In this document: positions 41,273 through 61,493 of the stretch, piece by piece
How the letters are laid out: each line of letters opens with the position of its first letter
Numbering within the stretch: position 1 is the stretch's first letter
From: a virus
DNA length: 64,000 bases
Strand: one strand, 5' to 3'
Virus record (IMG/VR): IMGVR_UViG_3300017963_000266
Span: 1-64,000 of that record
Position numbers and translations under genes: made by a program
Notes under the pieces: generated by a model
Databases searched by the model: none
What the model was told of the DNA's origin: nothing
The model's input: only the letters and a program-made list of their open reading frames with translations

Positions 41273-41291
41273 ACCAATATCCAGGGTAGCA

Positions 41292-42747: not shown

Positions 42748-42791
42748 TTAAAATTCCCTAAAAAGGCCCCTAAAAAAGCTCAGAATCAAAA

Positions 42792-42828
42792 GAACCCCTA
42801 ACCACCATTAGGGTTAGGGGTCCTTTTT
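42792..42828. terminator. Bidirectional terminator after the capsid gene
   Basis: ACCCCTAACC (42794-42803) pairs with GGTTAGGGGT (42812-42821). A T6 run follows on the plus strand and TTCTTTTG follows on the minus strand. It separates the capsid operon from the TnpB gene. Confidence 0.75.
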
Positions 42829-42855
42829 TATTTGACAGCAGCTGTTTAAGTTAGA

Positions 42856-44334
42856 TTAGAGCCAGACAGCGTAGTCTGAACTGGGGGTCCTGGCCGATAC
42901 ACCACCATTAACCCAGTGGGTATTGTCAGGATCATAATCCCTCAGGTGCTGTAACGGGCTGTACTTGACATGTTCAATCTTGCCAGCCAGCTGAGGAGTC
43001 CGCAGAACAACCCGCTGTTCTGACTTAAGACTAAACTTGTAACACCATTTAGTTTGCTCAACTGCCCAGCTGAAGATACCACGGTCAGTCCAAAAGTCCT
43101 CGCGTCCTTGCATCAGGGCAATGTCAGCCCCAGCTTCGCGGTAGTCCAGATATTCCATATAGGTTGCCGGGAAGTTTCCTGCTACCCGCATAGGAATAAA
43201 ATAGATACTGCTGGCGTATTCCCCAGCGTTAAGATTACTGGAGTCATTGGTCGCGTTATGCTCATAGATGCAGGTATCGGTGACAACCGGATAAGTACGC
43301 CCATTAACATCAATGGTCATGCCGCGCCGCATCCTGTCACGGTCACTGATATTTTCTCGCCCATCAGTCAGGACTCTGGCATCGCCGCCGATGCTGGTGC
43401 AACGGTTCGTGTTATACTTGCATGGCCAGCAGGCAGTCAATTCATACCACAGCTGGGGACGCATGGCCCAGACCCATTGACCAGGTAGCATGCCGGTATC
43501 ATCAGCCAGGGTGTAGATGAAATATTCCAGCATTGACATGTACTCAACAATGTCCTGGGTTGACCCACAAACGTCAGCATACTGGAAATCTTTCACATCA
43601 CTATCCAGACTGGCACAGGCAGTGTTGGTGTCAGCATCAACCTGGCCTGTGGCAATCTGGTTGTCTAAGCCAGGAAATTCCTTGTACCCACCTCCAGGGT
43701 TGTTGTTGCTGGGGCTGCCAGTCCAGACATGGCTGCAAAGTTTCCTTTCCATCCGAACCGCCGCACTGACCATTTCAGACATAGTGATAAGGTTCAAGAT
43801 TTGGGACTGATTCAGGCCTCTGGGGTACAGATCAGTCATTCCAAGAACCTCGCCCACCAGCCTCAGGTCAGTAAAGTCCCCACGGTTGACCCGTAACATA
43901 ACCTTGTCCATTTCAATGGTACGAGTATCACGCGCCACGCGCCCAAACTGGGCCTGCAAATTACAGGCCTTGACAAAGCCGTCTGGGGCATCATCACAAG
44001 GCTGCAATGGTTCTGCCCCCTGGTCATCACTGTAGCCAGTCAGGGCCCCATACCTGGGGTCTTCATTAACTGATCCCATCTTAGGTAGCATAGTAGCCAG
44101 GCCATGGGGTCTAACATGGGTTGTGATAATCTCACGTTCCAGACCTGGTGTGCTGAAAATGCCGGTACCACCATGCAAGAACGTGTTAGTTGCGGTACTG
44201 GCTGGGGCTTTGGTTGCCAGCCCCTGGTCTTTGGCAACCTGGCCTTGATAATGTTCCATCAAGGAAATCAGTTTTTCCTGGTTTGCCGCAACCTGTTTGA
44301 TAACGTCAATGTCTTGAAAATTGATTTCTGCCAT
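42856..44334 (-). CDS. Major capsid protein
   Basis: This is a 492-residue protein. It follows the protease/scaffold gene, the standard order for HK97-type heads. The sequence has a helical N-terminal part that may be cleaved (about 1-55), then an HK97-like body with TFLHGGTGIFS, QAQFGRVARDTRTIEM and QGREDFWTDRGIFSW. Motif evidence is weaker than position. It has a strong AGGAG ribosome site and normal CpG content, both fitting high expression. Cys pairs (WPCKYNTNRC) might form crosslinks. A terminator follows. Confidence 0.75.
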   Translation of the reverse strand: MAEINFQDIDVIKQVAANQEKLISLMEHYQGQVAKDQGLATKAPASTATNTFLHGGTGIFSTPGLEREIITTHVRPHGLATMLPKMGSVNEDPRYGALTGYSDDQGAEPLQPCDDAPDGFVKACNLQAQFGRVARDTRTIEMDKVMLRVNRGDFTDLRLVGEVLGMTDLYPRGLNQSQILNLITMSEMVSAAVRMERKLCSHVWTGSPSNNNPGGGYKEFPGLDNQIATGQVDADTNTACASLDSDVKDFQYADVCGSTQDIVEYMSMLEYFIYTLADDTGMLPGQWVWAMRPQLWYELTACWPCKYNTNRCTSIGGDARVLTDGRENISDRDRMRRGMTIDVNGRTYPVVTDTCIYEHNATNDSSNLNAGEYASSIYFIPMRVAGNFPATYMEYLDYREAGADIALMQGREDFWTDRGIFSWAVEQTKWCYKFSLKSEQRVVLRTPQLAGKIEHVKYSPLQHLRDYDPDNTHWVNGGVSARTPSSDYAVWL

Positions 44335-44381
44335 GATTCTTTGCTCCTAAAGAATAGTAAGATTGATAGTTGTCAGCAAAC

Positions 44382-46178
44382 CTATTGCTGTAAGAATTCC
44401 TTTTGAGCCTTTTCAATATCCTTGGCCCAGTTGCCGGTCACAATGGATGATACGATCCCATCAACCAGGGACTGTCCAGTAGCAATTACTTGATCCGGTT
44501 CTGGCTGGGTTTCCCTGGGCCCATCCTTGGCCAAGGACTCGCGCTTATCCTGTCTAGCCTGGGAATGCCCCACTGCCCTTTGGTACAAGTCAGTTAAGGT
44601 TTCAGCCTCTTGCTGAGCCTGGTCAACCGAAAGGGCTTTGACCTGTTCCCCAATGGCTGCTACAGCCTGGGACAGGGTTGCAATCTGTTCCCCAATGATA
44701 CTTACAACATCTTGCAATTCCTCGCGCCGGACTCCGGTATCTTCAACCAGGGGTTGCAATTCCTCAGCTGGTTGTTCTTGCTGTTCCTGGGCCCCGGGCT
44801 GCTCCTGCTGCTCCTGCTGCTCCTGGGCTTCAGATTGTTCTGGGTCATCTTTGGACTTAGAATCGAGTCCTTCCTTTTGGGCTGCATCAGCCTGGGCCTT
44901 GTTCGTCTCTTCAACAGCCCCCAGAATACCTGCTGGCAGTCCCCACTTGTCCTGCAATTCTTGTTTCTTGTCAATCATTTTTTCTTCCCTTTCCGTATCT
45001 TTAGATAGGACCAGGAATCCAGTCAAGTCATTGGCTGCCCAAGTTGCTGGCAATGGGCTGATTTCCCTGGTCACATGTTCGACAATGACTCTGGAATCAT
45101 TGTCATCATATTTTATAGATGAAACAGGCATTCCATGAGAAACACCTACAGACTCTGGGGGCAAACTCATTAAGAATTTTGCCAAAGGTTCAAAGCCCTT
45201 GTCTACCGTACCCCCCGCTATTGGAAATCCGGTGTTGTTGCCGGTGTCATCATATGCTATCCATTCTGCTGACCCCCATTTCCAGTCTTTGTTGTGCCAC
45301 AACCATAGTTCTGGCAAAGATGCCTGCCCACTATCAACCAAGCTGACAAATCTTTTGTGACTGTCTGCTGAAATAATTTCTTGTTCCTTGTCCAAAAAAT
45401 TGTTGCTATATCTGGCAATCCACTTATAAGCCCCATCAGCCCCCTTGTAAATCATAAAAGGGCCCACCTGGGTCTTAGACTGCTGGGATTGCTCTTGCCC
45501 CAGGGCAGTCTTGACCTTGTCAACCAGGACATTGAACCAGTTCTGGTCAACATCCTTATTGGCCTTGGCCAGCATGCCCTTGGCTTTTGTGGTCAGCTTG
45601 CTTTTAGTTGCTTCGTCAATCCTGTTAGACTGGGGAATTCTGGCCAAGGCATTTCTAAGGTGAGGCAAGTCCACCTTTCCTGATGCATCTTTGACCGGAA
45701 ACATTCTTAGAGTCCTGGGGGTTGTCTTGCCTTCGTTGTCCTTTTCCCCGCCAGGCAAGATATGTAAGAACGAAGAGTCAGGCAACCTGTTGACAAAAGC
45801 TGTTGACCAGACTGCCTTTTCTGGGTCCTGGTCTATCAAGGCAAGACCAACTGCCTTGTCAATTTCAACTTGCAGGACTTCTTTGACCAGGGTCCCATAT
45901 TCTGTCATTAGTTCATTAAGGGCCAATTCCTTATCACTAATGTCAAAGTCTGGCCTATTGGCAATCCTCTGAACCATCTCAGGCAAATGGTAATTCAACT
46001 TGTCCAATTCCATAGCAGCATCCTTGGCTGCTTCTATCTTTTCCAGTTCAGCAAAGGATATAGGCCCATATGGGCTACCCATTTCCTCGCCAGGATAGTA
46101 ATACTTTTCCTGCTGCTGATCACCCTGTTGCTGATCAACCTGTTCAAGATTCTGCTGGGTCTGATTCTTATCAGTCAT
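44382..46178 (-). CDS. Prohead protease (XkdF-like) fused to scaffold
   Basis: This is a 598-residue protein. Residues about 150-215 have the XkdF-associated pattern VDLPHLRNALARIPQ. Residues about 255-395 carry the protease-like domain with LPELWLWHNKDWKWGSAEWI, a GVSHGMP loop and REISPLPATWAAN. Residues about 400-598 are Gln/Glu-rich coiled coil, typical of scaffold. One polypeptide may thus shape the prohead and process it. It has its own promoter upstream and precedes the capsid gene. Confidence 0.75.
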   Translation of the reverse strand: MTDKNQTQQNLEQVDQQQGDQQQEKYYYPGEEMGSPYGPISFAELEKIEAAKDAAMELDKLNYHLPEMVQRIANRPDFDISDKELALNELMTEYGTLVKEVLQVEIDKAVGLALIDQDPEKAVWSTAFVNRLPDSSFLHILPGGEKDNEGKTTPRTLRMFPVKDASGKVDLPHLRNALARIPQSNRIDEATKSKLTTKAKGMLAKANKDVDQNWFNVLVDKVKTALGQEQSQQSKTQVGPFMIYKGADGAYKWIARYSNNFLDKEQEIISADSHKRFVSLVDSGQASLPELWLWHNKDWKWGSAEWIAYDDTGNNTGFPIAGGTVDKGFEPLAKFLMSLPPESVGVSHGMPVSSIKYDDNDSRVIVEHVTREISPLPATWAANDLTGFLVLSKDTEREEKMIDKKQELQDKWGLPAGILGAVEETNKAQADAAQKEGLDSKSKDDPEQSEAQEQQEQQEQPGAQEQQEQPAEELQPLVEDTGVRREELQDVVSIIGEQIATLSQAVAAIGEQVKALSVDQAQQEAETLTDLYQRAVGHSQARQDKRESLAKDGPRETQPEPDQVIATGQSLVDGIVSSIVTGNWAKDIEKAQKEFLQQ

Positions 46179-46204
46179 TATCCCTTTTCCTTATTTGTAA
46201 GAAT

Positions 46205-46234
46205 ATTTTATCACTTTAGAAAGTTTGATGTCAA
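46205..46234 (-). promoter_or_regulatory. Sigma70-like promoter for protease/scaffold and capsid
   Basis: On the minus strand TTGACA (46229-46234), an 18-base spacer and TAAAAT (46205-46210) precede the gene starting at 46178 by about 25 bases. It would boost capsid expression. Confidence 0.6.
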
Positions 46235-46241
46235 CCAATGA

Positions 46242-46730
46242 TTAGAAAGCCCCCTTTCCAGCCCTTTGCATTGCCTTAAGCAACCTCCGCCGAAATGGTT
46301 TTTTGCGTCTTTCCTGAACAATCCCAGACCATTCCCTGGCCTTGATTCCTGGCCTAACAATCTTTTTGCTAACTGTTACAAGACGCCCCCTGCCTCTTCG
46401 ACTCTTGACTTTCCTGGGAACAGTCTTTGATCTCCAATTAGGTGACATTAAAGCATGTCTAACCCTGGTACCCTCATTCAGCCAATTCCACTTTTTCACC
46501 CCCTGGGTAGGTCCCCCAGGCCCAGTTGCAACCGACGCGTCACTGGCACCTAAACCAATCTCAGATTGAAACTTTGGTTTGTCGCCTTTCCAAGTTTCAG
46601 TTGTCTTGTCCAGTTCATTTCGCTGGTCTTTTCCTTCGCGCCTCAATTCATTAAGCAATTCCAGCCGGATTGCATCAATCTTTAACCGTTTTGGTTTGAT
46701 AGCTTTGAAAACAAAGACAACTTCTGCCAT
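46242..46730 (-). CDS. Basic head assembly protein, possibly HK97 gp10-like
   Basis: This 162-residue protein is rich in Arg and Lys, especially the C-terminal half (PRKVKSRRGRGRL, RRKKPFRRRLLKAM). The GIKAREWSGIVQER segment resembles the late part of gp10-like tail-completion proteins. The place before the scaffold gene is unusual for that family, so a minor head protein is equally possible. Confidence 0.45.
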   Translation of the reverse strand: MAEVVFVFKAIKPKRLKIDAIRLELLNELRREGKDQRNELDKTTETWKGDKPKFQSEIGLGASDASVATGPGGPTQGVKKWNWLNEGTRVRHALMSPNWRSKTVPRKVKSRRGRGRLVTVSKKIVRPGIKAREWSGIVQERRKKPFRRRLLKAMQRAGKGAF

Positions 46731-46748
46731 ATTTTAAGGTTTACCCCC

Positions 46749-46777
46749 TTGTTTAATATTGAAAGTTATGATATGAT
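46749..46777 (+). promoter_or_regulatory. Promoter of the opposite-strand moron
   Basis: TTGTTT (46749-46754), a 17-base spacer and TATGAT (46772-46777) lie about 45 bases before the rightward gene at 46824. The -35 is weak; the -10 is good. Confidence 0.5.
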
Positions 46778-46823
46778 AATTAAAATTCAACTTTTAACTT
46801 TTAGTCTTGAAAGGACCTAAAAA

Positions 46824-47579
46824 ATGGTACCCAAAGAAATTGATCAGTTTGTAGTCGAACAGGAACATGGTAAGGACTCCACTGTCTGGGTGTATGAGTT
46901 ATCAGCTAATACCTGGGCAGGCCCAAGAGACTGGTTGATATATGTTTCTGACCAATCCCTTAAATCTAATTCTGGTAGGGCCTGGGACGTTAATAGGGCC
47001 ATTGAAAAGCATGCCCAACCCCAGGGCTTTGAATCCACTAGTCCCCAATCCGTTAATGAAGACCTAAGCTGGGGTGATGGTGTTAGCTTTCCAGACATGG
47101 TACAATCTGCTGCTAAGGGCAACTATTGGAACCACATAGCAACCTTTGTTTATTCCCCTGATGCCCACAGCAGGATTACTGCCATACACATTAAAGATGA
47201 CATTCAGAACCACCCTGATTATGTTGCAGCCTTTGAAAAAGCAGAACAGCAGGCCCAGGAAATAAAAGATACAACTGGTCGATTGATAGCAACTATCAAT
47301 AAAATGGTCCAGAAACTTGAAAAAGAAACTGACCAGGAATTGACAAGGCTGAACATTGAACTGCTTAAGGTACAAAAGCAACTGGTAGACAAGATCACTT
47401 TTCCAGACCACTTGAGTAAATATGACAGGGACCATCTGACCACCAGGCCTGTCAAAACAATTAAAACTGACGTTCTGGCTGATTTCCGATATAAGATTAT
47501 TCAGCAGCCCTTGGTCAGTCTTGACGACATTGAACAGGCCCTGGCTGCCGTGTATGAGGAATGGATCAATTCTGACTAA
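46824..47579 (+). CDS. Moron-type unknown protein with central coiled coil
   Basis: This is a 251-residue protein, the only rightward gene between 5.3 and 64 kb. It is preceded by its own promoter and the GAAAGGACCTAA ribosome motif and followed by a strong terminator, so it is an independent unit inside the structural block. Residues about 1-115 are mixed alpha/beta with Trp-rich segments. Residues about 130-195 form a long charged helix. No family is recognised. Morons often alter the host (exclusion, defence), which is only an analogy here. Confidence 0.65.
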   Translation: MVPKEIDQFVVEQEHGKDSTVWVYELSANTWAGPRDWLIYVSDQSLKSNSGRAWDVNRAIEKHAQPQGFESTSPQSVNEDLSWGDGVSFPDMVQSAAKGNYWNHIATFVYSPDAHSRITAIHIKDDIQNHPDYVAAFEKAEQQAQEIKDTTGRLIATINKMVQKLEKETDQELTRLNIELLKVQKQLVDKITFPDHLSKYDRDHLTTRPVKTIKTDVLADFRYKIIQQPLVSLDDIEQALAAVYEEWINSD

Positions 47580-47595
47580 CAATCCCTTGCTAATT

Positions 47596-47637
47596 AGCCC
47601 CCAGGCTGCCCCTGCTGGCCTCTGGGGGCTTTTTTTT
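47596..47637 (+). terminator. Intrinsic terminator of the moron
   Basis: AGCCCCCAG (47596-47604) pairs with CTGGGGGCT (47622-47630), followed by a run of T. Confidence 0.85.
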
Positions 47638-47651
47638 ATTACCTGGTATAG

Positions 47652-47690
47652 CAAGACCCTTTTTTCTGTAAATAGGCTACCAGGGTCTTG
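47652..47690 (-). terminator. Possible leftward terminator or attenuator
   Basis: CAAGACCC (47652-47659) pairs with GGGTCTTG (47683-47690) around a 23-base loop, just downstream of the leftward gene ending at 47754. There is no strong T run, so it is only a candidate. Confidence 0.35.
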
Positions 47691-47753
47691 TGTTGCCTTA
47701 TGTTGCTTAATCTGCCCATTGTGGGAAACCTACGGTTTCAAGTAGTATAAAGG

Positions 47754-48674
47754 TTATAAAGTTTCAAGGTACAAATCAAAGCCTGCTGATACATCCAAAT
47801 CATTAGCTGACCCAGCCCCTTGCATCTTAAAGATTCCTGGTCCTGTAAATCGGTTATAGGGATTAAAGAAATGCTGGACAGGATTGCCACCAGTACTTTG
47901 TGTTCCTAAACTATGCTTGACTAAAAAGACTGTTGGATTAATCTGGGGGACAGGATTGAACAATAAGCGCATGTCAACAAAGGCTGTAGCTGCATTGGCC
48001 CTTAGCACACTAAAATAAAAACCGGTCAAATAGGCTGCTTGGGTTGATGGAATTCCATATATTGCCATTTGAGTTTGACCCTCGTTAGGCTGAATCTGGG
48101 CAGTAACAGTTGCATCAACAGCCGCAGTTGCAGTGATAGTGCCCACATTTACAGATGTGCTACTAGCCTGAGGATTGATCTTCATCCTGTGAATAATGAC
48201 AGCAGCATTGGCCATAGCAATTCCAGCATTCAAATTGCCGGTCACTGTTTCCGTTTGCTCTGCTGTGTTCCAGTCTGGCAAGTAAGAAATAGTGATAGAA
48301 TTAGTCCCGGTCCCCCCAGTTGTGTCCTGGGCACTGGTTGAGGCAATGGTGTGGATTCTGGCTGCTGTAGGAGCCAGCCATATATCCTGGTCATTAGTAG
48401 CATTGGCCCTATCCCAGATGTCAGTATCAATCCCAGAATCAACATTAGTGCTTCGACCAAACTTATTGACCTGAGTCCAATTGGGCACCAGGCCAGCCGG
48501 TATAGATATTTCAGGGCCCAGGGTAATCAGCTGCCCATCTTTAATAATCAGGTCTGTTCCGGTTGAGTCCCTTAAAACTGTATAGACAGTCCCCCCAACA
48601 ATAAAGTTGCCATAGGGTTGCCCCTTAATAACCCCTTTGTCGTATGCATCATAAAAGATGTCTGGATGTGCCAT
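47754..48674 (-). CDS. Conserved head-associated structural protein
   Basis: This is a 306-residue beta-rich protein. NKFGRSTNVDSGIDTDIWDRAN and LAPTAARIHTIASTSAQDT with ISYLPDW are features of a virion protein common in marine and freshwater phages and usually near head genes. It probably decorates the capsid or forms a small fibre. It directly follows the small protein at 48674-48949. Confidence 0.6.
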   Translation of the reverse strand: MAHPDIFYDAYDKGVIKGQPYGNFIVGGTVYTVLRDSTGTDLIIKDGQLITLGPEISIPAGLVPNWTQVNKFGRSTNVDSGIDTDIWDRANATNDQDIWLAPTAARIHTIASTSAQDTTGGTGTNSITISYLPDWNTAEQTETVTGNLNAGIAMANAAVIIHRMKINPQASSTSVNVGTITATAAVDATVTAQIQPNEGQTQMAIYGIPSTQAAYLTGFYFSVLRANAATAFVDMRLLFNPVPQINPTVFLVKHSLGTQSTGGNPVQHFFNPYNRFTGPGIFKMQGAGSANDLDVSAGFDLYLETL

Positions 48675-48949
48675 TACAAGGTCCCCGAGATAAGATAGAC
48701 AGGAATTGCAGCCCCAGCCGTCTGACCACGCCCAGAAAGGGCAAGAACAGGAATGGGGTCCCCAGCTTGCAGGCCCCGTGTAGCAATGTAGGCATCATCT
48801 ACCACGTAAACAGGCTGAATAGACCCCCCATCAATGGCCCTAGTGCCTACATCAGCTGCTGCAATGGCTGCCACAGGAATTGCAGCCCCAGCTTGTATTT
48901 TGTTTGGGCTGCTGACCACTACAACCGGATTGATGCTGCCTTGTATCAT
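48674..48949 (-). CDS. Small beta-repeat structural protein
   Basis: This is a 91-residue protein built from short repeated units: NPVVVV, AAIPVAAI, IQPVYVV, DPIPVLAL and AAIPVYLI. Each ends near a Gly-rich turn. It overlaps the next gene by one base and lies after the portal. A minor head or decoration role is likely. Confidence 0.55.
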   Translation of the reverse strand: MIQGSINPVVVVSSPNKIQAGAAIPVAAIAAADVGTRAIDGGSIQPVYVVDDAYIATRGLQAGDPIPVLALSGRGQTAGAAIPVYLISGTL

Positions 48950-48979
48950 CTTAATGACTCCTTGCTTAATACGTTTTGA

Positions 48980-51295
48980 TTATGGCAGGCCTGGTAATGG
49001 GCCCTTTGACAATGGTTTATCTGTGGGCTGTAGCCGACAACCACACCTATACCCTTTGCATTCTAAGTAGCTGGCACCATTAACCTGAGGATAGATTCCC
49101 TGCTGATCCCAATATGATGCCCTTTTAACCTTGCCAGCTAATTTAAGGCAAGACCCACAGTTGTCATTGGCTGGATCAATAACCCATTCCAGCTTTTGGT
49201 CAGCACAGGCCATACCCCTGCCCCTATCCCTGGCAACCTGATATTGACTTGCCCAGACCTGGGCCCTGTCTAAAAATGGGCCCAGCCTTCCCCCTTCTGC
49301 CTTGCTGCCAGACTCAATGTCATTGGCCAGCCCCAGGACATAGGATAGCTGTCCTGAAATCATACCTTGCAAGGCTGTAATTTCCTGTCCTGTCAATTCA
49401 TCTGGCCTGATACCGCACTCTTTTGCACCCTCTTGCCAGGCCTGGGTCAGTCGCCTGGTCAGAACAGAATTCATATTATCAACAAATTGAAATTTTGAAA
49501 GGTCACCTGCCCAGTAACCTCTGATAGCTGACCTGATACCAGCCAGCATGTCAGCCCTGGTTTTAATTAGGTCAAAAGGGGATAGGGACTTTTCACCCCC
49601 TTCTTCATCCTCTTCTTCTTGTTTAGGTTCGGGCTGTTGTGGTGGTTGCTGATCCTGGGTAACATTTTCTGATTCCTCAGGGGCAACAGTTGGTTCAATG
49701 TCAACCGATTCCCCAGGACTCTTAATCAAGTCCCTTAGCTTGTTTAGAGCAACAATTACCTGCCTGGCCTTTTTCTTTAACTTGCCATTGGCAGCATTGA
49801 CCGCTACAGACTCCACTATTCTTAGTTGCTTATCAATCGCCGGTGCCCAGATCATTGGGTCATTAGTTTCAACATCTAAGGGGTCCCCTTGGGCATCAAT
49901 AGCCAAGAGCCCTACAAATTGTTCATCCTTGGTATGGAACAGAGTCAGGATGTCCAGACCATCTGGCAGTCTACCAGAATCTAATTCTAATTCCTCAAAT
50001 TGAGACTCTGTCAATTCCCCCTTTGTTAGCATATCCTCTCGGGCTGTCCTGATGGATATAACTTCAGAGTCTAGATTCTTTTGCCTTGCCTCTGCCCTGG
50101 CCTTGGCAATTTCAGCCGCCATTCTATCTTGTTCATCATCCTGAAAATCAAAGACCATCTTTAGGGGGGCAGGCAGAAACCTGGGTACATCGGAAAGGGC
50201 ACCACCAGTCCCAGTTGCAGGGCCCCCCAGCATTTCAGCTATCATCTTCAGGGTTGCCCCAGGCCCACCAGACAGCCCTGCCACATGCTGGAACATTGCG
50301 TCTGCCTTGGTTGCCCCGGTCATAGTTGCAGGCCATAACCATCTTGCTGGAACGTTGCCTGCCAGGGCAATAGTGAACATGCCCAGGGTGACATCATCCT
50401 CATAATTGAATCCGTCAGGCAAGCTGACCAGATCAATCAAGGAAATATCCCCATCTGGAATATTCCTATCACCTATGAATGGGACCTGGCTATAACGTCT
50501 TATGCCTCTGCTGTCCATTGTGGCATTGGCCATAGCCATAGCTGATGCTACATCTTCAGGGTCAAGACCCCCCTGGGTGATGCCAATAGCCCTTTTTTGC
50601 CTACTGCCTAATTTTTCCTGTTTGTAGACTGCTACATCAACCATTGATTGGGCCACATTAAGACATCTTGACAGCCAGCAGAATCCCACCCCATACATAT
50701 CAGCCCTGCTGCTGGGTAATTGGGACCTATAGAGAACTCTGGTTCTGTGTAGCCGGTACATGCGCCCATCAGTATCTTCATACAGGACAGGATATTCAAC
50801 AGACCCTGTTCTGGTACATCTGTGACTGTCTAAATGAGCCAAGCCAACTGGCAGCCCCCTAATAGGTCCATCCTTGTTTCCCCCACCAATGACTTCAACA
50901 AAGAGGCCATTATCACTTGAGTATAAGTCCATCAACAGCTTGGTCAGCAAGGTGCCCCAGCCCTGCCCGAACTCTGATTCAGATTCTAAATTTAGTTGGT
51001 ATTCTTCTGCCAACCTTCTATGCCTGGCAATGCTAGGGTCCCTTGGTTCAACGCGATATGGGACAGATGTTAGCCTGCTGGTCAAGGTATAGAAAGCCCC
51101 AGCAATGTGGTCACTGGACTTATAGAATCTGTCCAGTTCTGAGTCCCTACGCTGGGACCACCAGGGGCTTATTAATTCCCCAGCCCTAGCTAAAATTGCT
51201 AGTAGGGGGCTTCTGCCCTGTTCTGGTTGGGTCGCCCTGACTTGAACTGAGTCACTAACTGCCTGGTCTATACTCTTAATAATTTCTGTAGTCAT
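48980..51295 (-). CDS. Portal protein fused to MuF-like minor head domain
   Basis: This is a 771-residue protein. Residues about 40-420 follow the portal plan (RFYKSSDHIAGAFYTLTSRL, GLPVGLAHLDSHRC, KLGSRQKRAIGITQGG). A Gln/Glu-rich linker at about 540-570 leads to residues 575-771, which match MuF-type minor head proteins: RLTQAWQEGAKECG, then WVIDPANDNCGSCLKLAG and CKGYRCGCRL. The Cys set suggests zinc. Portal rings form the DNA gate, and MuF proteins are ejected or assist head assembly. Fusions of the two occur in other phages. Confidence 0.85.
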   Translation of the reverse strand: MTTEIIKSIDQAVSDSVQVRATQPEQGRSPLLAILARAGELISPWWSQRRDSELDRFYKSSDHIAGAFYTLTSRLTSVPYRVEPRDPSIARHRRLAEEYQLNLESESEFGQGWGTLLTKLLMDLYSSDNGLFVEVIGGGNKDGPIRGLPVGLAHLDSHRCTRTGSVEYPVLYEDTDGRMYRLHRTRVLYRSQLPSSRADMYGVGFCWLSRCLNVAQSMVDVAVYKQEKLGSRQKRAIGITQGGLDPEDVASAMAMANATMDSRGIRRYSQVPFIGDRNIPDGDISLIDLVSLPDGFNYEDDVTLGMFTIALAGNVPARWLWPATMTGATKADAMFQHVAGLSGGPGATLKMIAEMLGGPATGTGGALSDVPRFLPAPLKMVFDFQDDEQDRMAAEIAKARAEARQKNLDSEVISIRTAREDMLTKGELTESQFEELELDSGRLPDGLDILTLFHTKDEQFVGLLAIDAQGDPLDVETNDPMIWAPAIDKQLRIVESVAVNAANGKLKKKARQVIVALNKLRDLIKSPGESVDIEPTVAPEESENVTQDQQPPQQPEPKQEEEDEEGGEKSLSPFDLIKTRADMLAGIRSAIRGYWAGDLSKFQFVDNMNSVLTRRLTQAWQEGAKECGIRPDELTGQEITALQGMISGQLSYVLGLANDIESGSKAEGGRLGPFLDRAQVWASQYQVARDRGRGMACADQKLEWVIDPANDNCGSCLKLAGKVKRASYWDQQGIYPQVNGASYLECKGYRCGCRLQPTDKPLSKGPLPGLP

Positions 51296-51299
51296 TAGG

Positions 51300-52607
51300 T
51301 CACCAATCTATCATCACAACTTTGGCTTTGGGTATAGGTTTGTCAGCATACATAGCTGCATATCTGGCCATATCCATCCCATCATCTTCAACCTTGACAG
51401 GCTGTTCCTTATCTTGTCGATTGGCCCAGACATAACCCCCAAATTCATCTTCTGTCTTATGGGGCTTCTTGGCATCAATCAAGGACTGGTCCTGGTAGAT
51501 TAGGGAATCGCGTACAATAAACAGCCTGGGCTTTCCATCCCCAGCTGTCTGAAGTCTTTGCTGAACCGTATTGATACCTGGCAATACGTCATTGATAGCT
51601 GGCACTGCTGGCAGCCCAGCCTGTTGGTAAGATTCAATATACGCTGGCTGATCAGGACCACAGGCAATAGCTTCCAGCCGGTACTTTTTGTGTAATTCCT
51701 GAGCCCTTTCAACCCACCAGTCAATGGTTTGGCCAGTCCGATATACCTGCCTAATTAGGTACATGCGCCCATCAGAATCAACCCCCCATATACCTAACAC
51801 CCCAGGGTGGGTATATCCCCAGTCCTGGCCAGCAATATACCTGGGGAATTCTTTAGGGCACTGATCAGCTGTTATCAAGTGAACAGCCGGATTCCAATCC
51901 TCAAATATAACCCCTTCAGCCTGGGCAGGTTTACCTTCATATAGCCTAACCCGGCGCATGCCGGTCAGATTCTTGAGTCTGGAAATGGTTACTTGGCCTT
52001 GCTGGGTCAGCTGTCCTGTTAATGGGTCATATAGGACAGGGTTGTCAGTATGGTGAGAATAAAACAATCTAATCGATTCCCTGGTATACATCCAATGGCC
52101 TGGATATGCTGGATTTGCATCCCCAATGGTCTGGCTGTAGGGCATATTACCAGCCCTGCCAGTAGTTCTGGTGGTCAATGTTTCCCAGTCATCTAACATC
52201 AATTCTTCAGCCTGGTTCACATAGATAATGTCATGCTCTGCTGACAGAATCTTGCCTGACTTGTCTAAGCCTGCAATCCAGATTCTTGACCCAGTTGGAT
52301 ATTGAAACCATTCTGGCTTTTGTCCCCCATAGGGCTGAACAGGGTCTGAACTAATGACCTTGTTCTGAAAAGTTTGCAAGACAGTTGAATAAGTTGATGC
52401 CAAAGTCTTTCTGGCAATGACCAGGCTGCAACCAGGATATTTATAGGCACAAAGATGCAAAAAGTTAAGGGCTGATAGGGTCTTGCCTGTTTCAGCTGGG
52501 CCATGTAGAATTGCTTCAGCCCCCTTATACATAGCAAAATCTCTGGCCCCACCATAGAACGTAAAGTCAGCCGTGTTAGCTGGTCCATTAATAATACTAA
52601 ATGTCAT
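51300..52607 (-). CDS. terL: Terminase large subunit
   Basis: This is a 435-residue protein. Walker A is GPAETGKT at residues 36-43, Walker B is DIIYVNQAEEL near 126-136, and the nuclease starts with AGQDWGYTHPG, whose Asp is the first metal ligand. A late acidic pair lies in VEDDGMDMARY. It pumps DNA into the prohead and cuts it. It overlaps the small subunit by 11 bases and is five bases from the portal. Confidence 0.93.
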   Translation of the reverse strand: MTFSIINGPANTADFTFYGGARDFAMYKGAEAILHGPAETGKTLSALNFLHLCAYKYPGCSLVIARKTLASTYSTVLQTFQNKVISSDPVQPYGGQKPEWFQYPTGSRIWIAGLDKSGKILSAEHDIIYVNQAEELMLDDWETLTTRTTGRAGNMPYSQTIGDANPAYPGHWMYTRESIRLFYSHHTDNPVLYDPLTGQLTQQGQVTISRLKNLTGMRRVRLYEGKPAQAEGVIFEDWNPAVHLITADQCPKEFPRYIAGQDWGYTHPGVLGIWGVDSDGRMYLIRQVYRTGQTIDWWVERAQELHKKYRLEAIACGPDQPAYIESYQQAGLPAVPAINDVLPGINTVQQRLQTAGDGKPRLFIVRDSLIYQDQSLIDAKKPHKTEDEFGGYVWANRQDKEQPVKVEDDGMDMARYAAMYADKPIPKAKVVMIDW

Positions 52608-53106
52608 CTAGGTCCAGACCCCCAATGACCTTGACCTTATGTTCAACTTCCCCTGTATGCTCAACCCTATCAGTAAAAAGTGAATGTATCTTTCCAATGT
52701 GAACCAATGCTGATTGAGCATCATAAAATTCAACTTCCAGCTTACCATCTTTGTTGTGCTTGGTCTTTTTGATTAAATGTCCTTTTCCATCTTCCAGCAG
52801 CCTGCCCAAATCAACAGTCCCATCAGGGCTGATGTAATCGCTATACTGGGCCTGGGCCTGTTCTGCCAATCGAGCAATTACTTCATTGGCAGTCATTGCT
52901 TTTTCACTTAATCTGCGTTCAATTTCCTCTGCAATGTTACGCTTTGCAACTAATCCTGACGATCTGGCGCGCGCATTGTCATAATCCCCACCATAAACAT
53001 TAAGATATGCCTGGGCCTGATGCATATTGCATTTGAATAATTCATCAATGAATAGTCGATGTTTTTTGATGGGTACTCTTTCACTTAGCGGTTTTAATTC
53101 ATCCAT
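52597..53106 (-). CDS. terS: Terminase small subunit
   Basis: This is a 169-residue protein. The N-terminal part has the Terminase_2 HTH layout: HRLFIDELFKCNMHQAQAYLNVYG, then SSGLVAKRNIAEEIERRL. VIARLAEQAQ begins the linker helix, and a beta/acidic tail ends in GLDLDDI. It recognises packaging sites. The unusual structured DNA just upstream is a candidate target. Confidence 0.8.
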   Translation of the reverse strand: MDELKPLSERVPIKKHRLFIDELFKCNMHQAQAYLNVYGGDYDNARARSSGLVAKRNIAEEIERRLSEKAMTANEVIARLAEQAQAQYSDYISPDGTVDLGRLLEDGKGHLIKKTKHNKDGKLEVEFYDAQSALVHIGKIHSLFTDRVEHTGEVEHKVKVIGGLDLDDI

Positions 53107-53119
53107 TTTCTTATCCTTA

Positions 53120-53172
53120 CAACCTTGGCAGCCCTATCCACCTTTGCAACCCTGGCAGCCCTATCCATTGTA
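53120..53172. repeat. Two 27-bp direct repeats in the terS leader
   Basis: Copies start at 53120 and 53147 and share TGGCAGCCCTATCCA. They lie between the promoter and the terS start, so a protein bound there could control packaging-gene expression or mark a pac site. Confidence 0.6.
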
Positions 53173-53193
53173 CCATTGCCGGTCAACTGTCAA
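53167..53193 (-). promoter_or_regulatory. Promoter in front of terS
   Basis: On the minus strand TTGACA (53188-53193) is 15 bases from TACAAT (53167-53172), which is preceded by TGG as an extended -10. The short spacer is compensated by the extended box. It would start the packaging and head operon. Confidence 0.55.
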
Positions 53194-53350
53194 GCCCCGC
53201 GAAACCCGCGGGGCTGCTGCACTACGTTTCGCCCCCTGCGGGGTGACAGTTTCCCTTTGCAATGGTGGGGGCTGCTAACAGCCAGGGGTTGCTTCCCAAA
53301 AGGTTGCCCCTGGAACGCCATAGAATCGCCTCTAAGCCCTTTTCCTAATT
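53194..53350. other. GC-rich multi-hairpin region upstream of terS
   Basis: No gene is seen. GCCCCGCG pairs with CGCGGGGC (53194-53214), CCCC with GGGG near 53233-53246, GGCTG with CAGCC near 53268, and CCAGGGG with CCCCTGG near 53282-53313. A degenerate match to the 22-base core of the dispersed element follows (AGAATCGCCTCTAAG near 53321). CpG is frequent here, unlike its surroundings. It could be a packaging site, a structured RNA or the end of an upstream operon. Confidence 0.5.
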
Positions 53351-53418
53351 TTGGTACTTAGCATACCTTTTTTGCCTATAATCCTTGTCCTGCCCATCCT
53401 GGTAAGTCTCAGGGCCAT

Positions 53419-53601
53419 TCAGGACAGTAGCCAGAAAGTCATAGCAGCAGTAATTGCCCCTGTCAGCCAGCCCACCACAAAGACTTCTGCTTTTTCCGCT
53501 ACTTTGGCCAGCCAGCTTTTGGGTGGTACCACTTCCTGGGTCAGCCGGTTCTGATCATCAATGGACCCAATTACTTTGTACTTTTGGATAGTTTCAGCCA
53601 T
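53419..53601 (-). CDS. Small single-pass membrane protein
   Basis: This 60-residue protein has a polar N-terminal part and one membrane helix (VFVVGWLTGAITAAMTFWLL) at the C-terminus. It starts directly after the stop of the upstream gene. Its place in the lysis region suggests a holin-accessory or tail-anchored role, unproven. Confidence 0.5.
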   Translation of the reverse strand: MAETIQKYKVIGSIDDQNRLTQEVVPPKSWLAKVAEKAEVFVVGWLTGAITAAMTFWLLS

Positions 53602-53859
53602 TTATTTTGCCTCTTGTTCTATTGCCGTATTAAACCAGTTGCTGTCCTCATGAGCCCTGGCAATCTGCGCCCCCTGAGGATGAGGAATAATCTCAAAAGC
53701 CAGACCAGAATAAGGCACCAGCTTGAACAATTCCCCGGGCTGAATAACAAATCCATCCTTAGAGCAAGTCACCGCAATCTGTAGGCCTGATCTTGACTGT
53801 TCCAGACTGACTCTGGTCACCCCATCCTGGGCAGTTTCTGTGGTCACATTAACTTTCAT
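53602..53859 (-). CDS. Small beta-rich protein, unknown
   Basis: This is an 85-residue, mostly beta protein (VTRVSLEQSRSGLQIAVTC, LFKLVPYSG). It overlaps the previous gene by 11 bases and touches the next. No family is recognised. Confidence 0.5.
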   Translation of the reverse strand: MKVNVTTETAQDGVTRVSLEQSRSGLQIAVTCSKDGFVIQPGELFKLVPYSGLAFEIIPHPQGAQIARAHEDSNWFNTAIEQEAK

Positions 53860-54346
53860 CCTCTAACCCCTGAAATAACTCTTGTTGGACTTCTTCAGTC
53901 AAAAGAGGCAAGATTTCACCAGCAATATCTTGTAGCTGGTCCTGTTCCAGCTTGCCCCAGGCCTTGGTTCTGATGGGCGGGTTCATCTGTTCAAGGACCT
54001 GTACCAGCATCTTATAATCTGAGCGAAAAAATATTTCAATAAGGTTCTGGATCAGGACAGCCCTTGTTCCACTGGCGTCAATAATTGCAGCTAAAATATC
54101 CTTATCTTCAAGACTTGCAGCAGCAATTACCCCTAACCTTTCGCGGCTGCTTTGGTATTGCTGTTGCAGGGACATTGCCGTTTTAATCAGGTCAGCAAAC
54201 TTTTCTTCTATCTTTTCCCCAGCCTGGTATTCTGATTGCAGGTCGCGGACTCGATGCCAGAAAGACTTTTCAAAGTCCAGTAGGGCAATATGGTCCCCCT
54301 TAACCTTTTTCTTCAGTTCATCAATAACTGTCCTTGTCTTGGTCAT
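53849..54346 (-). CDS. Acidic helical protein, unknown
   Basis: This 165-residue protein is almost entirely helical with a charged coiled-coil start (ELKKKVKGDHIALLDFEKSF) and an acidic end. No motif is recognised. It lies between membrane-protein genes of the late region. Confidence 0.5.
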   Translation of the reverse strand: MTKTRTVIDELKKKVKGDHIALLDFEKSFWHRVRDLQSEYQAGEKIEEKFADLIKTAMSLQQQYQSSRERLGVIAAASLEDKDILAAIIDASGTRAVLIQNLIEIFFRSDYKMLVQVLEQMNPPIRTKAWGKLEQDQLQDIAGEILPLLTEEVQQELFQGLEDES

Positions 54347-54348
54347 TT

Positions 54349-54684
54349 TTATTCCTTAGTAAACTTCCATTGCAATAGAACCAGGGCTGCAATAACAGCT
54401 AGCCCTGAGATTTCAGCAATCGATAAAAAAATGCTGTTAAAAAAAGGCATATGCCAGCTGTCAAAAGAAAGATAAATAAAACCAAAAGCATCGTTAAGGT
54501 ACATTATTGCCAAGGCAGTAAAAAAGACAATCAGTCCCAAAGTTGCCCCATTGCCCCCTTTGCGATAATCATTAATGAATCGGTAGGCCCAGACCGCAAA
54601 CCAGACAAAGATAACAAGGTCCTGGGCTGCTATTCTTAACCGAATAGTATCATTCAGTAGATGCAACAATCCTTCTGAAAGCAT
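54349..54684 (-). CDS. Three-helix membrane protein
   Basis: This is a 111-residue protein with three hydrophobic helices at about 21-38, 48-64 and 85-105, and short charged loops. It sits in a run of membrane-protein genes near the holin candidate and could be a second holin or antiholin. No family motif confirms this. Confidence 0.5.
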   Translation of the reverse strand: MLSEGLLHLLNDTIRLRIAAQDLVIFVWFAVWAYRFINDYRKGGNGATLGLIVFFTALAIMYLNDAFGFIYLSFDSWHMPFFNSIFLSIAEISGLAVIAALVLLQWKFTKE

Positions 54685-54737
54685 GTGTTATCTCAGCTGA
54701 TTCCCTTTTTTGCCACTTAAAGATTTTTTTTAGCTGT

Positions 54738-55184
54738 TCAATCAATGTCCCCATCCCTATCCTTTCCCAGGTCACCTTGTATCAGGTCAAGAATTCGATT
54801 CTGCTTTTGAATAACCTGAACCAGATGTTGATTCAATAAAGTTATTAAGTCATTATTTCTCTGGATTGCCATATGAATTCCCCGAACCTGCTGTTCAACG
54901 TCATTGAATTCAACCCTTGACCAGTCAATGGTTTCTTTTAGGATATTCAAAGCCTGGTTGTCAATCTGAATCTGCCTGAGTCGCATGGCAGCCTGGTCCT
55001 GCAAGCTTGCTTCCAGCTTAACTGTGTCCAGTTCCTGTCTGTGTTCCCTGGTATCATCTGTCACCTTAAATAACTGTATATACCAGGCCCTGATATGATT
55101 CCTCAGGATGTATAGAACAATCAGAATGGGACTCAGCCAAGTTGGTAGCTGATCCCAGGACCAGGCTGATCTTGGGTCATCCAT
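54738..55184 (-). CDS. Membrane-anchored coiled-coil protein
   Basis: This 148-residue protein has one membrane helix at about 16-28 (LSPILIVLYIL) followed by a long charged coiled coil to residue 140. That layout is like an inner-membrane spanin or tail-anchored accessory protein. It is 9 bases downstream of the holin candidate. Confidence 0.5.
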   Translation of the reverse strand: MDDPRSAWSWDQLPTWLSPILIVLYILRNHIRAWYIQLFKVTDDTREHRQELDTVKLEASLQDQAAMRLRQIQIDNQALNILKETIDWSRVEFNDVEQQVRGIHMAIQRNNDLITLLNQHLVQVIQKQNRILDLIQGDLGKDRDGDID

Positions 55185-55193
55185 CCTAAAGAG

Positions 55194-55472
55194 TTACTTG
55201 CTGGTCTTACTTAGCTGGTAGACGCCGGATACAACCAGAAAGATGTATACCGAATAGGCAATCGGTTCTGCAATAACCACCCACTGAGGAAATTGTTGCA
55301 ACAGCAGGGCTGCAACATAACCTATTACTGACAACCCACCAGCCAGATATGGGGCATTCTGATCCTGTATAAGACCAGTTCGCTTGGCCAGGGTAACCAG
55401 TCCAATGATTATGGGCACCAGGGCAGTTGTCCCAATGGCCAGGTCTTGAATAACACTAAAATCGAATTCCAT
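55194..55472 (-). CDS. Holin candidate
   Basis: This is a 92-residue protein. It has a hydrophobic segment (TTALVPIIIGLVTLA), a charged turn (KRTGLIQDQNAP), then two more hydrophobic helices and a Lys-containing tail. Length and layout fit small phage holins, which open the membrane at lysis. No endolysin gene was recognised nearby, so the call rests on topology. Confidence 0.6.
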   Translation of the reverse strand: MEFDFSVIQDLAIGTTALVPIIIGLVTLAKRTGLIQDQNAPYLAGGLSVIGYVAALLLQQFPQWVVIAEPIAYSVYIFLVVSGVYQLSKTSK

Positions 55473-55514
55473 TTTCTTTCCCTTTCTACTTTCTATTGGT
55501 TAGATAATTAAAAA

Positions 55515-55536
55515 AAGGCACCTATTTAGGTGCCTT
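55515..55536. terminator. Intrinsic terminator before the lysis genes
   Basis: AAGGCACCT (55515-55523) pairs with AGGTGCCTT (55528-55536). On the minus strand a T7 run follows. It ends the short transcript of the gene at 55588-55944. Confidence 0.85.
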
Positions 55537-55587
55537 AATTGTATCATACCTGGGTTGCAGTTGTCTAACACAACCCAGATTGTTTAC

Positions 55588-55944
55588 TTACCAGCATTGG
55601 TACCCTGGGGACTGGACCCCAGCAAAGGTCTGGTGCCCACGCGCCCCGTGGTACCAGATTATGGCTGCTGTTGCCCATTCACTTCCACAATCAGGATGTA
55701 TGGCATAAAACGGGTTGCGCCAATCGCTTGGGTCAAACAGGGCCTGGTACACAGCCATCATATAAGCTGTGGTCTTGTTAAGGGGGGTTTGACCCACCAG
55801 CCTGCCCTGGTCATCTAGTTCCATTTCAGTCTTGAAATGACCTTGCAGATAGATGACAATTTCATCAGCAGTCTTGCCATTCAGCTGCTGGGGTTTCTGG
55901 GCCTCGATCTTTGCCCCTTCTGTGGTGTATCCTTTGAAACTCAT
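55588..55944 (-). CDS. Unknown 118-residue protein with its own promoter
   Basis: It stands alone between a consensus promoter (56008-56036) and an intrinsic terminator, with AAAGGACCC before the start. The chain is alpha/beta with a Trp- and His-rich second half (AAIIWYHGARGHQTF). No family is recognised. Separate strong control suggests an early host-directed or regulatory protein. Confidence 0.55.
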   Translation of the reverse strand: MSFKGYTTEGAKIEAQKPQQLNGKTADEIVIYLQGHFKTEMELDDQGRLVGQTPLNKTTAYMMAVYQALFDPSDWRNPFYAIHPDCGSEWATAAIIWYHGARGHQTFAGVQSPGYQCW

Positions 55945-57707: not shown

Positions 57708-58202
57708 TTAAACAGCCTTTTCTTTAGTAGGCCAGATATAGGGCCACTTGCCCAACTCATTTCTGGTTGCTGGCTCTTCTGTCCATCCCCACTGCTGATA
57801 CCATTGCCAGATTTTATCTTTGCCCTTATCTTTGCTTTCCTGGGCTTTGCCTAGCATTATTGCCCGATGGACAGAACAGAATTCATCAGTTATCCAGTCT
57901 GGATAATTTGGTATATACAAGTCAAAACCCCATTCATATGCAATCGAAACAATTTGATTGTACACAGTATCGCGCTTGCCCCTGGTGACTGTCCATTCTT
58001 TGCAGATTGTCAAAGAGTAGTCAACTAAACTTGTTTCCCATCCTCGCCACATCTTAACAGCAGGATGATTCTGCCAGCCATAATCTGGGTCAGTCAGGGC
58101 TTTTAGAATCTGTAGACATTCAACTCTTTGTTTGCCTAACCGTTGATTGTCCAGCCAGGCTGCTGTCTGCGCATAATCAGTTGATAACATAAAGGTTTGC
58201 AT
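57708..58202 (-). CDS. Pyrimidine-dimer glycosylase-like phage protein
   Basis: This is a 164-residue protein. ATG 58202 is chosen because GAAAGGATTC precedes it and the family begins MQTF. MLSTDYAQTAAWLDNQRLGKQRVE, NHPAVKMWRGWE and EWTVTRGKRD form a pattern common in phage proteins annotated as T4 endonuclease V-like glycosylases. The catalytic N-terminal amine would be lost if the Met is kept. Function is inferred from the family label. Confidence 0.55.
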   Translation of the reverse strand: MQTFMLSTDYAQTAAWLDNQRLGKQRVECLQILKALTDPDYGWQNHPAVKMWRGWETSLVDYSLTICKEWTVTRGKRDTVYNQIVSIAYEWGFDLYIPNYPDWITDEFCSVHRAIMLGKAQESKDKGKDKIWQWYQQWGWTEEPATRNELGKWPYIWPTKEKAV

Positions 58203-58277
58203 CACTAAGAATCCTTTCACTCGCTTTATTAATTTACTTGCCTTTTTTGTTGTCCCCCTACGCTACTTAGGGGTTGT

Positions 58278-59272: not shown

Positions 59273-59860
59273 TTATTTTTCTAAGCAATCAAACATTCTT
59301 AATTGTTCTATTGGAGTCTTATCTACGGTTTCAAAGACCATACTGTCTGGCAACCCCAGCTGCCAGGTCACCCAGACTGAGGCAAAGTGTGACCCAGCCC
59401 CATTCCAACCTTTGTTAGGCATCTTGTAGTCAATCCGCTTGTCCATAAAAATGACTTGTAGTCCAAAATTCTTGGCTGGAATCTGAAAGCCCTTCGCCCC
59501 CAGGGTGTCAACGGGCACCAGCAGGGCGAAGGGCTTTTGGTAAGAAATGCTTTTTTCTAACCAGGCATATTTATGGGACCAGGGTGGGTTTGTTACTTGA
59601 ACGTCATATTCCTGGGGCTGCCACTCATAAAAATCACGTCTGGGCCAACCGCCAGCTGCCAGGTCTGACCCAAAGACATCAAATCCAAAATATCTCAAAG
59701 TGTAGACAATATACCCTTCTCCGCAAGCTGACTCCCAGATAATTGCATCCTGGGGCAAATACTTAACTAAGGGGGGCAAGGCATAAAAAGGGGTCATACA
59801 CTGATCATACTTATTGACTTGCTTTTGGTTGCCTGAGCGATTCACCTTTGACTTTTTCAA
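59273..59860 (-). CDS. DNA N6-adenine methyltransferase-like protein
   Basis: This is a 195-residue protein. Motif I is ESACGEGY at 43-50 and motif IV is NPPW at 91-94, the amino-methyltransferase signature. The acidic motif is GSDLAAGG. It lacks a clear target-recognition domain, so specificity may be low or relaxed. Such solitary phage enzymes protect DNA from restriction. The leader carries three 10-bp repeats and the extended ribosome motif. Confidence 0.7.
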   Translation of the reverse strand: MKKSKVNRSGNQKQVNKYDQCMTPFYALPPLVKYLPQDAIIWESACGEGYIVYTLRYFGFDVFGSDLAAGGWPRRDFYEWQPQEYDVQVTNPPWSHKYAWLEKSISYQKPFALLVPVDTLGAKGFQIPAKNFGLQVIFMDKRIDYKMPNKGWNGAGSHFASVWVTWQLGLPDSMVFETVDKTPIEQLRMFDCLEK

Positions 59861-59912
59861 CTTTTCCCAACTTTCCTAGTTAAGGTCCTTTCAAACTCTT
59901 TTTCTAACTTTT

Positions 59913-59942
59913 CTTATACCAGTCTGTACCAGTCTATACCAC
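59913..59942. repeat. Three 10-bp TATACCAS repeats
   Basis: Units CTTATACCAG, TCTGTACCAG and TCTATACCAC are in perfect 10-bp tandem. They match the core of the repeats at 578-597 and 24409-24452 and lie upstream of the methyltransferase gene. Confidence 0.7.
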
Positions 59943-59958
59943 TTTACCTAAGACTCAA

Positions 59959-60087
59959 GAAACCGCCCTGTGGTCTGCCCTTATCCCTTTTCGGCATCCC
60001 AACCGAAACAAAGCAGTAAAGATGGGAAAAGGGCAGGCCGCAAAACGGTTTCTGCCTTACTACTTTGTTTGGATAGTGGGGATGCCG
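59959..60087. other. Interlocked inverted repeats (A-B-A'-B')
   Basis: In this gene-free stretch, segment A (59959-59987) is the inverted match of A' (60024-60052; 23 of 29 bases) and segment B (59992-60021) the inverted match of B' (60056-60087), sharing CTTTGTTT and GGGATGCCG blocks. The order A-B-A'-B' cannot form nested hairpins and would give a pseudoknot-like fold. A smaller hairpin TTTCGG/CCGAAA lies at 59989-60008. The remaining bases to 60172 hold an orphan ACCTTAAAATTTC block. It could be an origin, a structured RNA or a control region. Confidence 0.6.
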
Positions 60088-60172
60088 TTAAATTGTATAG
60101 GCATCATACAGCATTATTAAGAAAAAGACAAGGGGAGCAACCTTAAAATTTCCAAATTGCCCCCCTACAGAA

Positions 60173-60502
60173 TCAAATTACTAAATGGTCAAGGCTTCCT
60201 GGCTTGCCCCCTTTTGGTGGGGGCACATCAAAGGGCCCTGTATCCCTGCCCCTGGGCCCTGGGTCTGGGGGACTGCCCATGTCAACTATTCTAATGGCAT
60301 TGGCAGCCTGGGGCATTATTGCCATTGCCCCTAAAGGATTCTTGCTGCCAGTTTTCACCATCAAAACATCCCAACCGCCTCTGTCAAAGGTAATCAGAAT
60401 CTGGGACCCATCAGGACCCTGCAAGTTGATGTACTCGGATTGACCCATCCATTCTTGTGTCCCATCCTCGCCCAACTCTGTCACTTTAATTTGTTGTGCC
60501 AT
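60173..60502 (-). CDS. Small protein with Pro/Gly-rich tail, unknown
   Basis: This is a 109-residue protein. Residues 1-75 are beta-rich (SQILITFDRGGWDVLMVKTG) and residues 76-105 are Pro/Gly-rich and disordered (SPPDPGPRGRDTG). No family is recognised. It is in the early leftward operon after the Toprim gene. Confidence 0.5.
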   Translation of the reverse strand: MAQQIKVTELGEDGTQEWMGQSEYINLQGPDGSQILITFDRGGWDVLMVKTGSKNPLGAMAIMPQAANAIRIVDMGSPPDPGPRGRDTGPFDVPPPKGGKPGSLDHLVI

Positions 60503-60530: not shown

Positions 60531-61493
60531 TTAAGTTAGTTCTTGCCAGTTGTCCTTGACATAAGCTAATACATCAAGGTATTCATTTTCCTGGGCCTTG
60601 GCATCATCCCATAGGCCTGAGTCAACCAGACCCCAGATAGTGTCCTGAATTAGGTCAACCAGAATGTCAGGGTCCAACGCGTCCAATTCCCAACTGCTTC
60701 GGGTATCATAGGTAGTTACATAGTCAGCCCATCTGGAATCGGTTATCTTAGCTGGGTTTGGTGGGGGGTCATACTGTTCAACCTGATCCATATTCAAGGC
60801 AAGCCGTAACAGGGAAAAGTCACTTTCAGCATTTTCTTCAATCTGACCAACCACTGATTCCCCACTGCCAACAAACTGGCTGCCCCGTAATCCACTATAC
60901 TTTTCCAGTCTTTCAAGATTGTCCCTGGTCATGTCGATTCCGCTGGGGTCATGGTCCCCCAGATGAATGATAACAGGGTGTTGCCCAAGATTAGACAGCC
61001 GCAACAGTTGATTTGCTTCACGCCAGATTGTACTGGCTGACATATATCCTCTGCAACTGACATAATTAACCTGTACGTTAGCAGCAAGGCAGGCCCTGCT
61101 GACAACCCCAGCCAAGGCTTCTTTTTCAACCCAAACCATTGGGCGAAAAGGCTGATTGACCCATTTATCAATTCTAAACGAGTCATAGGCTGCCTTAATA
61201 ATCTGACCTGGGTCTTCCCACAGAGTCAGTCCTTTTCTGTTTCTGGTCCTGTCTACAATGGCCAGCCAATCAATAAGTCCAGCTTCCCTGGCATCAGCAA
61301 TCAGCCTGCCCAGCCGATTGTATGATCTTTCTGTATTAGGTATGATGTCCTTGGCAACCAACTGATAATACAATTGCCTTAGAGTCAATTCATATCCCCT
61401 GCCCATATAGCTGGTGATAATGTTTTCTGCCTGTTCAATCAAGACCAGGCTGCTACTTTGGAAATTTTTCTCGATATATTTTATCTTTGGCAT
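60531..61493 (-). CDS. Toprim-domain protein related to Topo VI A/Spo11
   Basis: This is a 320-residue protein. The Toprim residues are E123 in WVEKEALAG and D180/D182 in LGDHDPSG. The N-terminal part has LTLRQLYYQLVAKDIIPN and YNRLGRLIADAREAGLI, a winged-helix-like segment with a conserved tyrosine region as in Topo VI A relatives. IVDRTRNRKG follows. The family occurs in many phages, with unclear activity (DNA nicking or topology). It lies between a structured region and an HTH regulator. Confidence 0.7.
   Translation of the reverse strand: MPKIKYIEKNFQSSSLVLIEQAENIITSYMGRGYELTLRQLYYQLVAKDIIPNTERSYNRLGRLIADAREAGLIDWLAIVDRTRNRKGLTLWEDPGQIIKAAYDSFRIDKWVNQPFRPMVWVEKEALAGVVSRACLAANVQVNYVSCRGYMSASTIWREANQLLRLSNLGQHPVIIHLGDHDPSGIDMTRDNLERLEKYSGLRGSQFVGSGESVVGQIEENAESDFSLLRLALNMDQVEQYDPPPNPAKITDSRWADYVTTYDTRSSWELDALDPDILVDLIQDTIWGLVDSGLWDDAKAQENEYLDVLAYVKDNWQELT

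Follow-up and report, generated by a model that had tools for sequence, protein, structure and literature searches.

An interlocked inverted-repeat element in a viral intergenic region, probably an RNA switch rather than a replication origin

We found that four inverted-repeat arms interlock within a 312-bp intergenic region (59861-60172) of virus record IMGVR_UViG_3300017963_000266 (hereafter G000; 69,992 bp in total), whose bases 1-64000 constitute the 64,000-nt window analysed here. Its 130 bases could form one or the other of two long RNA hairpins, though not both in full. We regard the element of this bacterial virus as a probable on/off RNA switch placed where viral messages begin, not as a replication origin. 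The arrangement, all on the minus strand, comprises a predicted promoter (60131-60103), the element itself (60087-59958), whose second helix is U-ended, and a DNA methyltransferase-like gene (59860-59273). The same order is seen in a second virus record, G004, and this anatomy fits a transcription attenuator. The reading that we favour, tentatively and with somewhat under even confidence, is a structured leader RNA at the 5' end of a minus-strand transcript into the methyltransferase gene, working as a transcription-attenuator switch. Judged from sequence, an RNA function of the element is moderately supported, and the attenuator mechanism is what we infer from the layout.

The initial annotation had described interlocked inverted repeats A-B-A'-B' in a gene-free region, and both parts of this description are borne out, the former at 59958-60087 and far above chance in shuffles, the latter by the ORF list of the window, which contains no ORF of at least 60 aa in the element region. 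Read along the minus strand, the order is b-a-b'-a', with linkers of 3, 3 and 4 nt: arm b (60057-60087, previously B') begins 15 nt past the -10 box and pairs with b' (59992-60020, previously B), and arm a (60024-60053, previously A') pairs with a' (59958-59987, previously A). Helix a:a' has 27 predicted pairs and a loop of 36 nt, and helix b:b' has 26, mainly in two blocks (9 and 14 bp) that flank an asymmetric internal loop; sequence comparison reveals no relation between arms a and b. The interlock score of 26.5 is the best genome-wide, with 22.5 as the maximum over 15 dinucleotide-shuffled copies of the 64 kb, and none of 1500 shuffled versions of the 312-bp intergenic region reaches it. 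Additionally, the chained-helix score is 37.2, compared to at most 23.8 in leader shuffles (0/3000) and a maximum of 29.1 when 11.3 Mb of loci were shuffled. The A/A' pair spans 30 nt and is 80% complementary. Its differences had been described as mostly transitions that keep G-U pairing; the transitions hold (5/6), but the keeping of G-U pairs does not, with two differences giving G-U and three giving A-C on the plus strand, and three and two, respectively, on the minus strand. Across the three long elements described below, the gene-sense strand carries 12 G-U pairs versus 4 A-C mismatches (p = 0.077, two-sided, not significant), an excess that lends weak support to an RNA function on that strand.

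Next, we consider the genomic setting. The minus strand carries nearly all of the larger G000 genes from ~5 kb onward. Upstream of the element in the reading direction lie first a topoisomerase-like gene (60531-61493, PHROG 6247), then a small gene (60173-60502), followed by a predicted terminator-like minus-strand hairpin with 10-nt arms and a long loop, then TGTCTTTTTCTT (60131-60166), which likely terminates the upstream topoisomerase operon. The predicted promoter, TTGTCT-17-TATGAT (60103-60131), is preceded by a 13-mer, AAATTTTAAGGTT (60139-60151, minus strand), 7 bp ahead of the -35 box. On the promoter scan alone this promoter is no better than shuffles; it is credible because the motif is shared with other G000 promoters, being found in either orientation with at most one mismatch before those near 65859, 62119, 56060, 46729 and perhaps 42756. 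Transcription would start near 60096, ~9 nt before arm b. Promoters of this family, with AAATTTTAAGGTT or its reverse complement, also occur in the otherwise largely unrelated records G002, G003 and G004, and the motif is rare in Chloroflexota (4/400 genomes). The other motif-promoter leaders examined are 31-92 nt long and have no interlock.

Downstream of the element, three 10-bp direct repeats, TATACCAGTC/TGTACCAGTC/TATACCACTT (59915-59944), separate it from the methyltransferase-like gene (PHROG 799, TTG start), the presumed regulated gene, and no promoter was seen between element and gene. A Shine-Dalgarno sequence, GAAAGGACC (59884-59892, minus strand), which is strong and uniform and serves at least eight other genes of G000, has no start codon at the usual spacing here, and the start of the methyltransferase gene may be degenerate or unusual. 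Sequestration of the ribosome site was considered on account of a 17-nt match between 59861-59877 and 60015-60031 and rejected, as accessibility hardly changes between the two states. The methyltransferase reading frame also contains a perfect 14-bp inverted repeat, AAAGCCCTTCGCCC / GGGCGAAGGGCTTT (59486-59537), and the same gene run includes a pyrimidine dimer DNA glycosylase-like gene (Pyr_excise, 57708-58220). Elsewhere in the window, a mostly intergenic cluster of inverted repeats, for example ACCCGTTGCAACT / AGTTGCAACGGGT, is found at 41116-41330.

We then examined other viruses. Neither DNA similarity among phages and plasmids nor the arm pattern among viral contigs revealed a sequence relative of the G000 intergenic region beyond chance. 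Neighbour-protein searches of viral and genome collections returned topoisomerase relatives of at most 58% identity that lack shared synteny, and hence no close relative spans the element site. Viral contig L083 (IMGVR_UViG_3300028840_006554), evidently the same virus as G000 assembled elsewhere given its 100% identity to window positions 41303-55716 over 14.4 kb, stops before that site.

The layout itself recurs with different letters. A promoter-motif search of viral contigs retrieved locus L209 of record G004 (94,133 bp), in which a promoter of the same family (AACCTTAAAATTT-N10-TTGACA-N16-TAAGCT) directly precedes an element in b-a-b'-a' order (b 5082-5056, a 5058-5032, b' 5017-4993, a' 4988-4962) that begins 17 nt past the -10 box; as the G004 examples come from this motif search, the promoter link partly reflects selection. 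Its b has a perfect 9-bp outer block and an asymmetric internal loop, as in G000, its b'-a' linker is 4 nt, and the gene downstream encodes an unknown protein. The G000 and L209 elements have no convincing sequence similarity, and because the layout recurs with unrelated letters the arms must have changed together. Retained four-segment pairing of this kind, seen here in one distant pair rather than in an alignment, would be expected under co-variation.

A layout scanner that demands a compact b-a-b'-a' arrangement ranks G000 (37.2) and L209 (32.8) top in 1.95 Mb, and yields a third case in record G002 (locus L227, 9282-9162, score 32.9). There, b:b' is a perfect 11 bp, a:a' is a 39/45-nt helix, and the element lies in the leader of a thioredoxin-like gene, 52 nt upstream of it. 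No motif promoter adjoins this element, the only promoter of any kind being TTGACA-17-TATACT ~190 bp upstream, across an IS605-like remnant. The intervening segment (~9283-9430), recognised by eye, we take to be an IS605/TnpB-like right end; it comes without a full tnpB gene, and the G002 element could be a decayed transposon. No further place scores 30 or more in ~3.7 Mb of real loci, some of them overlapping, and a wider promoter scan together with 1.15 Mb more viral DNA gave no new member. Clear motif promoters occur in four records, of which G000, G002 and G004 bear an element and G003 is a fragment. The genes downstream of the three long elements (methyltransferase, unknown protein and thioredoxin-like) are mutually unrelated.

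Regulatory RNA was among the functions first proposed for the repeats, and this option has gained support: the element opens a predicted transcript, and the four-segment order recurs in two unrelated viruses. Lack of this order in relatives had been named at the outset as the finding that would refute the proposal, and the recurrence runs against it. Decay of a mobile element, or fortuitous overlap of two functionless inverted repeats, is a very unlikely origin of the pattern. It would suit the lack of conserved sequence, the IS605-like remnant adjoining the G002 case and the ease with which inverted-repeat families interlock trivially, as at locus L138, but A and B are mutually unrelated, unlike the repeats of L138, and within the ~3.7 Mb the compact layout exceeds a score of 30 solely in the three viruses that have the promoter motif. 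The interlocks of L138 and L112 had been discarded as single repeat families or coding repeats.

Under the attenuator reading, arm b would pair first with b' during synthesis, keeping arm a in the loop, and the emerging a' would then let a:a' displace b:b'. Helix a:a', with its U-rich end, would be the terminator-like OFF helix and b:b' the antiterminator, and the setting of the switch would depend on folding speed or on a factor binding b or a. The two helices share no bases, and the short linkers would block the formation of both in full, leaving either exclusion by topology or a partial pseudoknot. Across the elements the linkers are 1-6 nt, or the segments overlap, which makes the full helices mutually exclusive by topology. 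Using a simple loop-length model to judge coexistence, we find that complete a:a' and b:b' together are disallowed in G000, with linkers of 3-4 nt versus the ~12 and ~21 nt needed. The pseudoknot-type topology of the initial annotation is possible as an alternation of helices or as a partial pseudoknot, but the complete double pseudoknot is sterically impossible with such linkers.

Folding of the growing chain on the G000 minus strand forms b:b' first (from ~85 nt), and a:a' becomes competitive at ~140 nt. The two states are balanced on this strand (ensemble -57.0 and -57.6 kcal/mol) and unbalanced on the plus strand (-50.6 and -59.8 kcal/mol). Since a:a' is ahead by ~15-18 kcal/mol in G004 and G002, equal state energy is not a feature of the class, and the absence of this balance in the two other viruses counts against the attenuator, as do the unrelated downstream genes, the 36-nt loop of a:a', which is unusual for an intrinsic terminator, the weak U tract in G000 and G002, and the small difference between states in how the element pairs with the ribosome site. 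The U-rich ends of a' are UUUCUUGA in G000 (59955-59962, minus strand; terminator-like but weak), UUUUUAUG in L209 (a:a' of G004 ends in UUUUU), and UUCUGUGU in G002, and a consensus terminator scan found no intrinsic terminator at the G000 element.

The same U-rich ends would suit an independent small noncoding RNA of ~135-140 nt, starting near 60096, normally ending at a:a' and acting in trans as a decoy, antisense or protein-binding RNA, and possibly oligomerising, with b of one copy pairing with b' in the loop of another. We consider this unlikely. In its favour, the element has its own promoter and a terminator upstream, and the downstream genes of the three viruses are unrelated, but the methyltransferase gene seems to need read-through, since no promoter was seen ahead of it, and the element is always upstream of a same-strand gene. 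It is distinctly unlikely that the element is instead a leader acting in cis to alter RNA polymerase or shield the message, whether by put-like processive antitermination or as a 5' stabiliser or RNase III site, with the interlock giving one compact fold of part of b:b' and most of a:a'. Its extreme 5' position resembles that of putL of HK022 (PMC9378689). In the rough loop-length model, a partial pseudoknot that retains the outermost 8-13 bp of b together with most of a is feasible in G000 and G004, where it would gain ~6-7 kcal/mol over a:a' alone if a guessed pseudoknot penalty of 9 kcal/mol is applied; in G002 it is unfavourable. Furthermore, put is ~70 nt long with two plain stem-loops (PMC9378689), and the elements have no conserved sequence, which a polymerase-binding RNA would need.

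The remaining functions suggested at the outset fared worse. GC skew is uniformly negative from 8 kb to the record end, without a sign change near the element, although this is a weak test, as gene direction also shapes skew. Apart from the presence of repeats, nothing supports a role as replication origin, and a DNA-level element of any kind (origin, recombination site or operator region) seems to us very improbable. The inverted repeats do lie beside the direct repeats noted above and an AT-rich stretch, with replication-type genes nearby, but besides the lack of a skew switch, the element recurs in association with promoters and leaders and is oriented toward a gene, and the G-U bias, though weak, falls on the gene strand. 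No evidence was found for a recombination site. Nor was there any for a ribozyme, as Rfam at gathering score had no match in the window or L209 and a permissive Rfam scan gave only chance-level hairpin matches. Searches for tRNA and tmRNA gave none.

A fourth, short interlock was observed in a G004 leader (locus L223), after a -10 box ending at record position 77796. This leader has two hairpins whose 6-nt loops (GCACGG and CCGTGC) are fully complementary. The second hairpin is an intrinsic terminator, the only canonical one among the interlocked leaders, GACTGGCAG-CCGTGC-CTGCCAGTC-TTTTT, that serves as a:a', with a 9-bp stem and then UUUUU. The terminator loop is complementary to GGCACGGC, 15 nt past the -10 box (1/4000 shuffles), the same start distance as that of G000 arm b (15 nt), the long G004 element starting at 17 nt. 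The short leader is a possible kissing-loop attenuator, and it suggests how the long elements may work.

Switching in the attenuators described so far, and in many riboswitches, comes from competition between two helices for shared bases. That the elements form a new class of phage leader RNA, with OFF and ON helices that share no nucleotides, exclude each other by interlocked order and are kept in several viruses despite complete sequence turnover, is a doubtful proposition at present. If true, it would amount to a different switch design, with long helices that share no bases and exclusion through strand order only, which sequence-based RNA searches miss, as the layout alone is conserved. 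If it were confirmed, a layout scan could turn up further members, and studies of co-transcriptional RNA folding could make use of the design. Among RNAs with crossing helices in one molecule, H-type pseudoknots (riboswitches, ToxI-like antitoxins) are alike in principle, but their natural stems are short, whereas here the helices run to ~20-38 bp (b in G002 being 11 bp) and the linkers leave no room for both to be complete. The pT181-type antisense-controlled attenuator likewise has a leader RNA in which a 5' antiterminator competes with a downstream terminator hairpin (PMC4878617), the counterpart here being terminator-like. The pT181 antiterminator base-pairs with the terminator stem itself, in its 5' half, whereas b:b' and a:a' share no bases and exclude each other only by their interlocked order; pT181-type control is by antisense RNA, and no such RNA was identified for the G000 element. 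Finally, the HK022 put RNA (putL) is also a phage leader RNA directly after a promoter, in its case an early one, and its copies are similar (PMC9378689), whereas the present element is ~130 nt long and interlocked, shares no sequence between copies and falls outside the definition of put.
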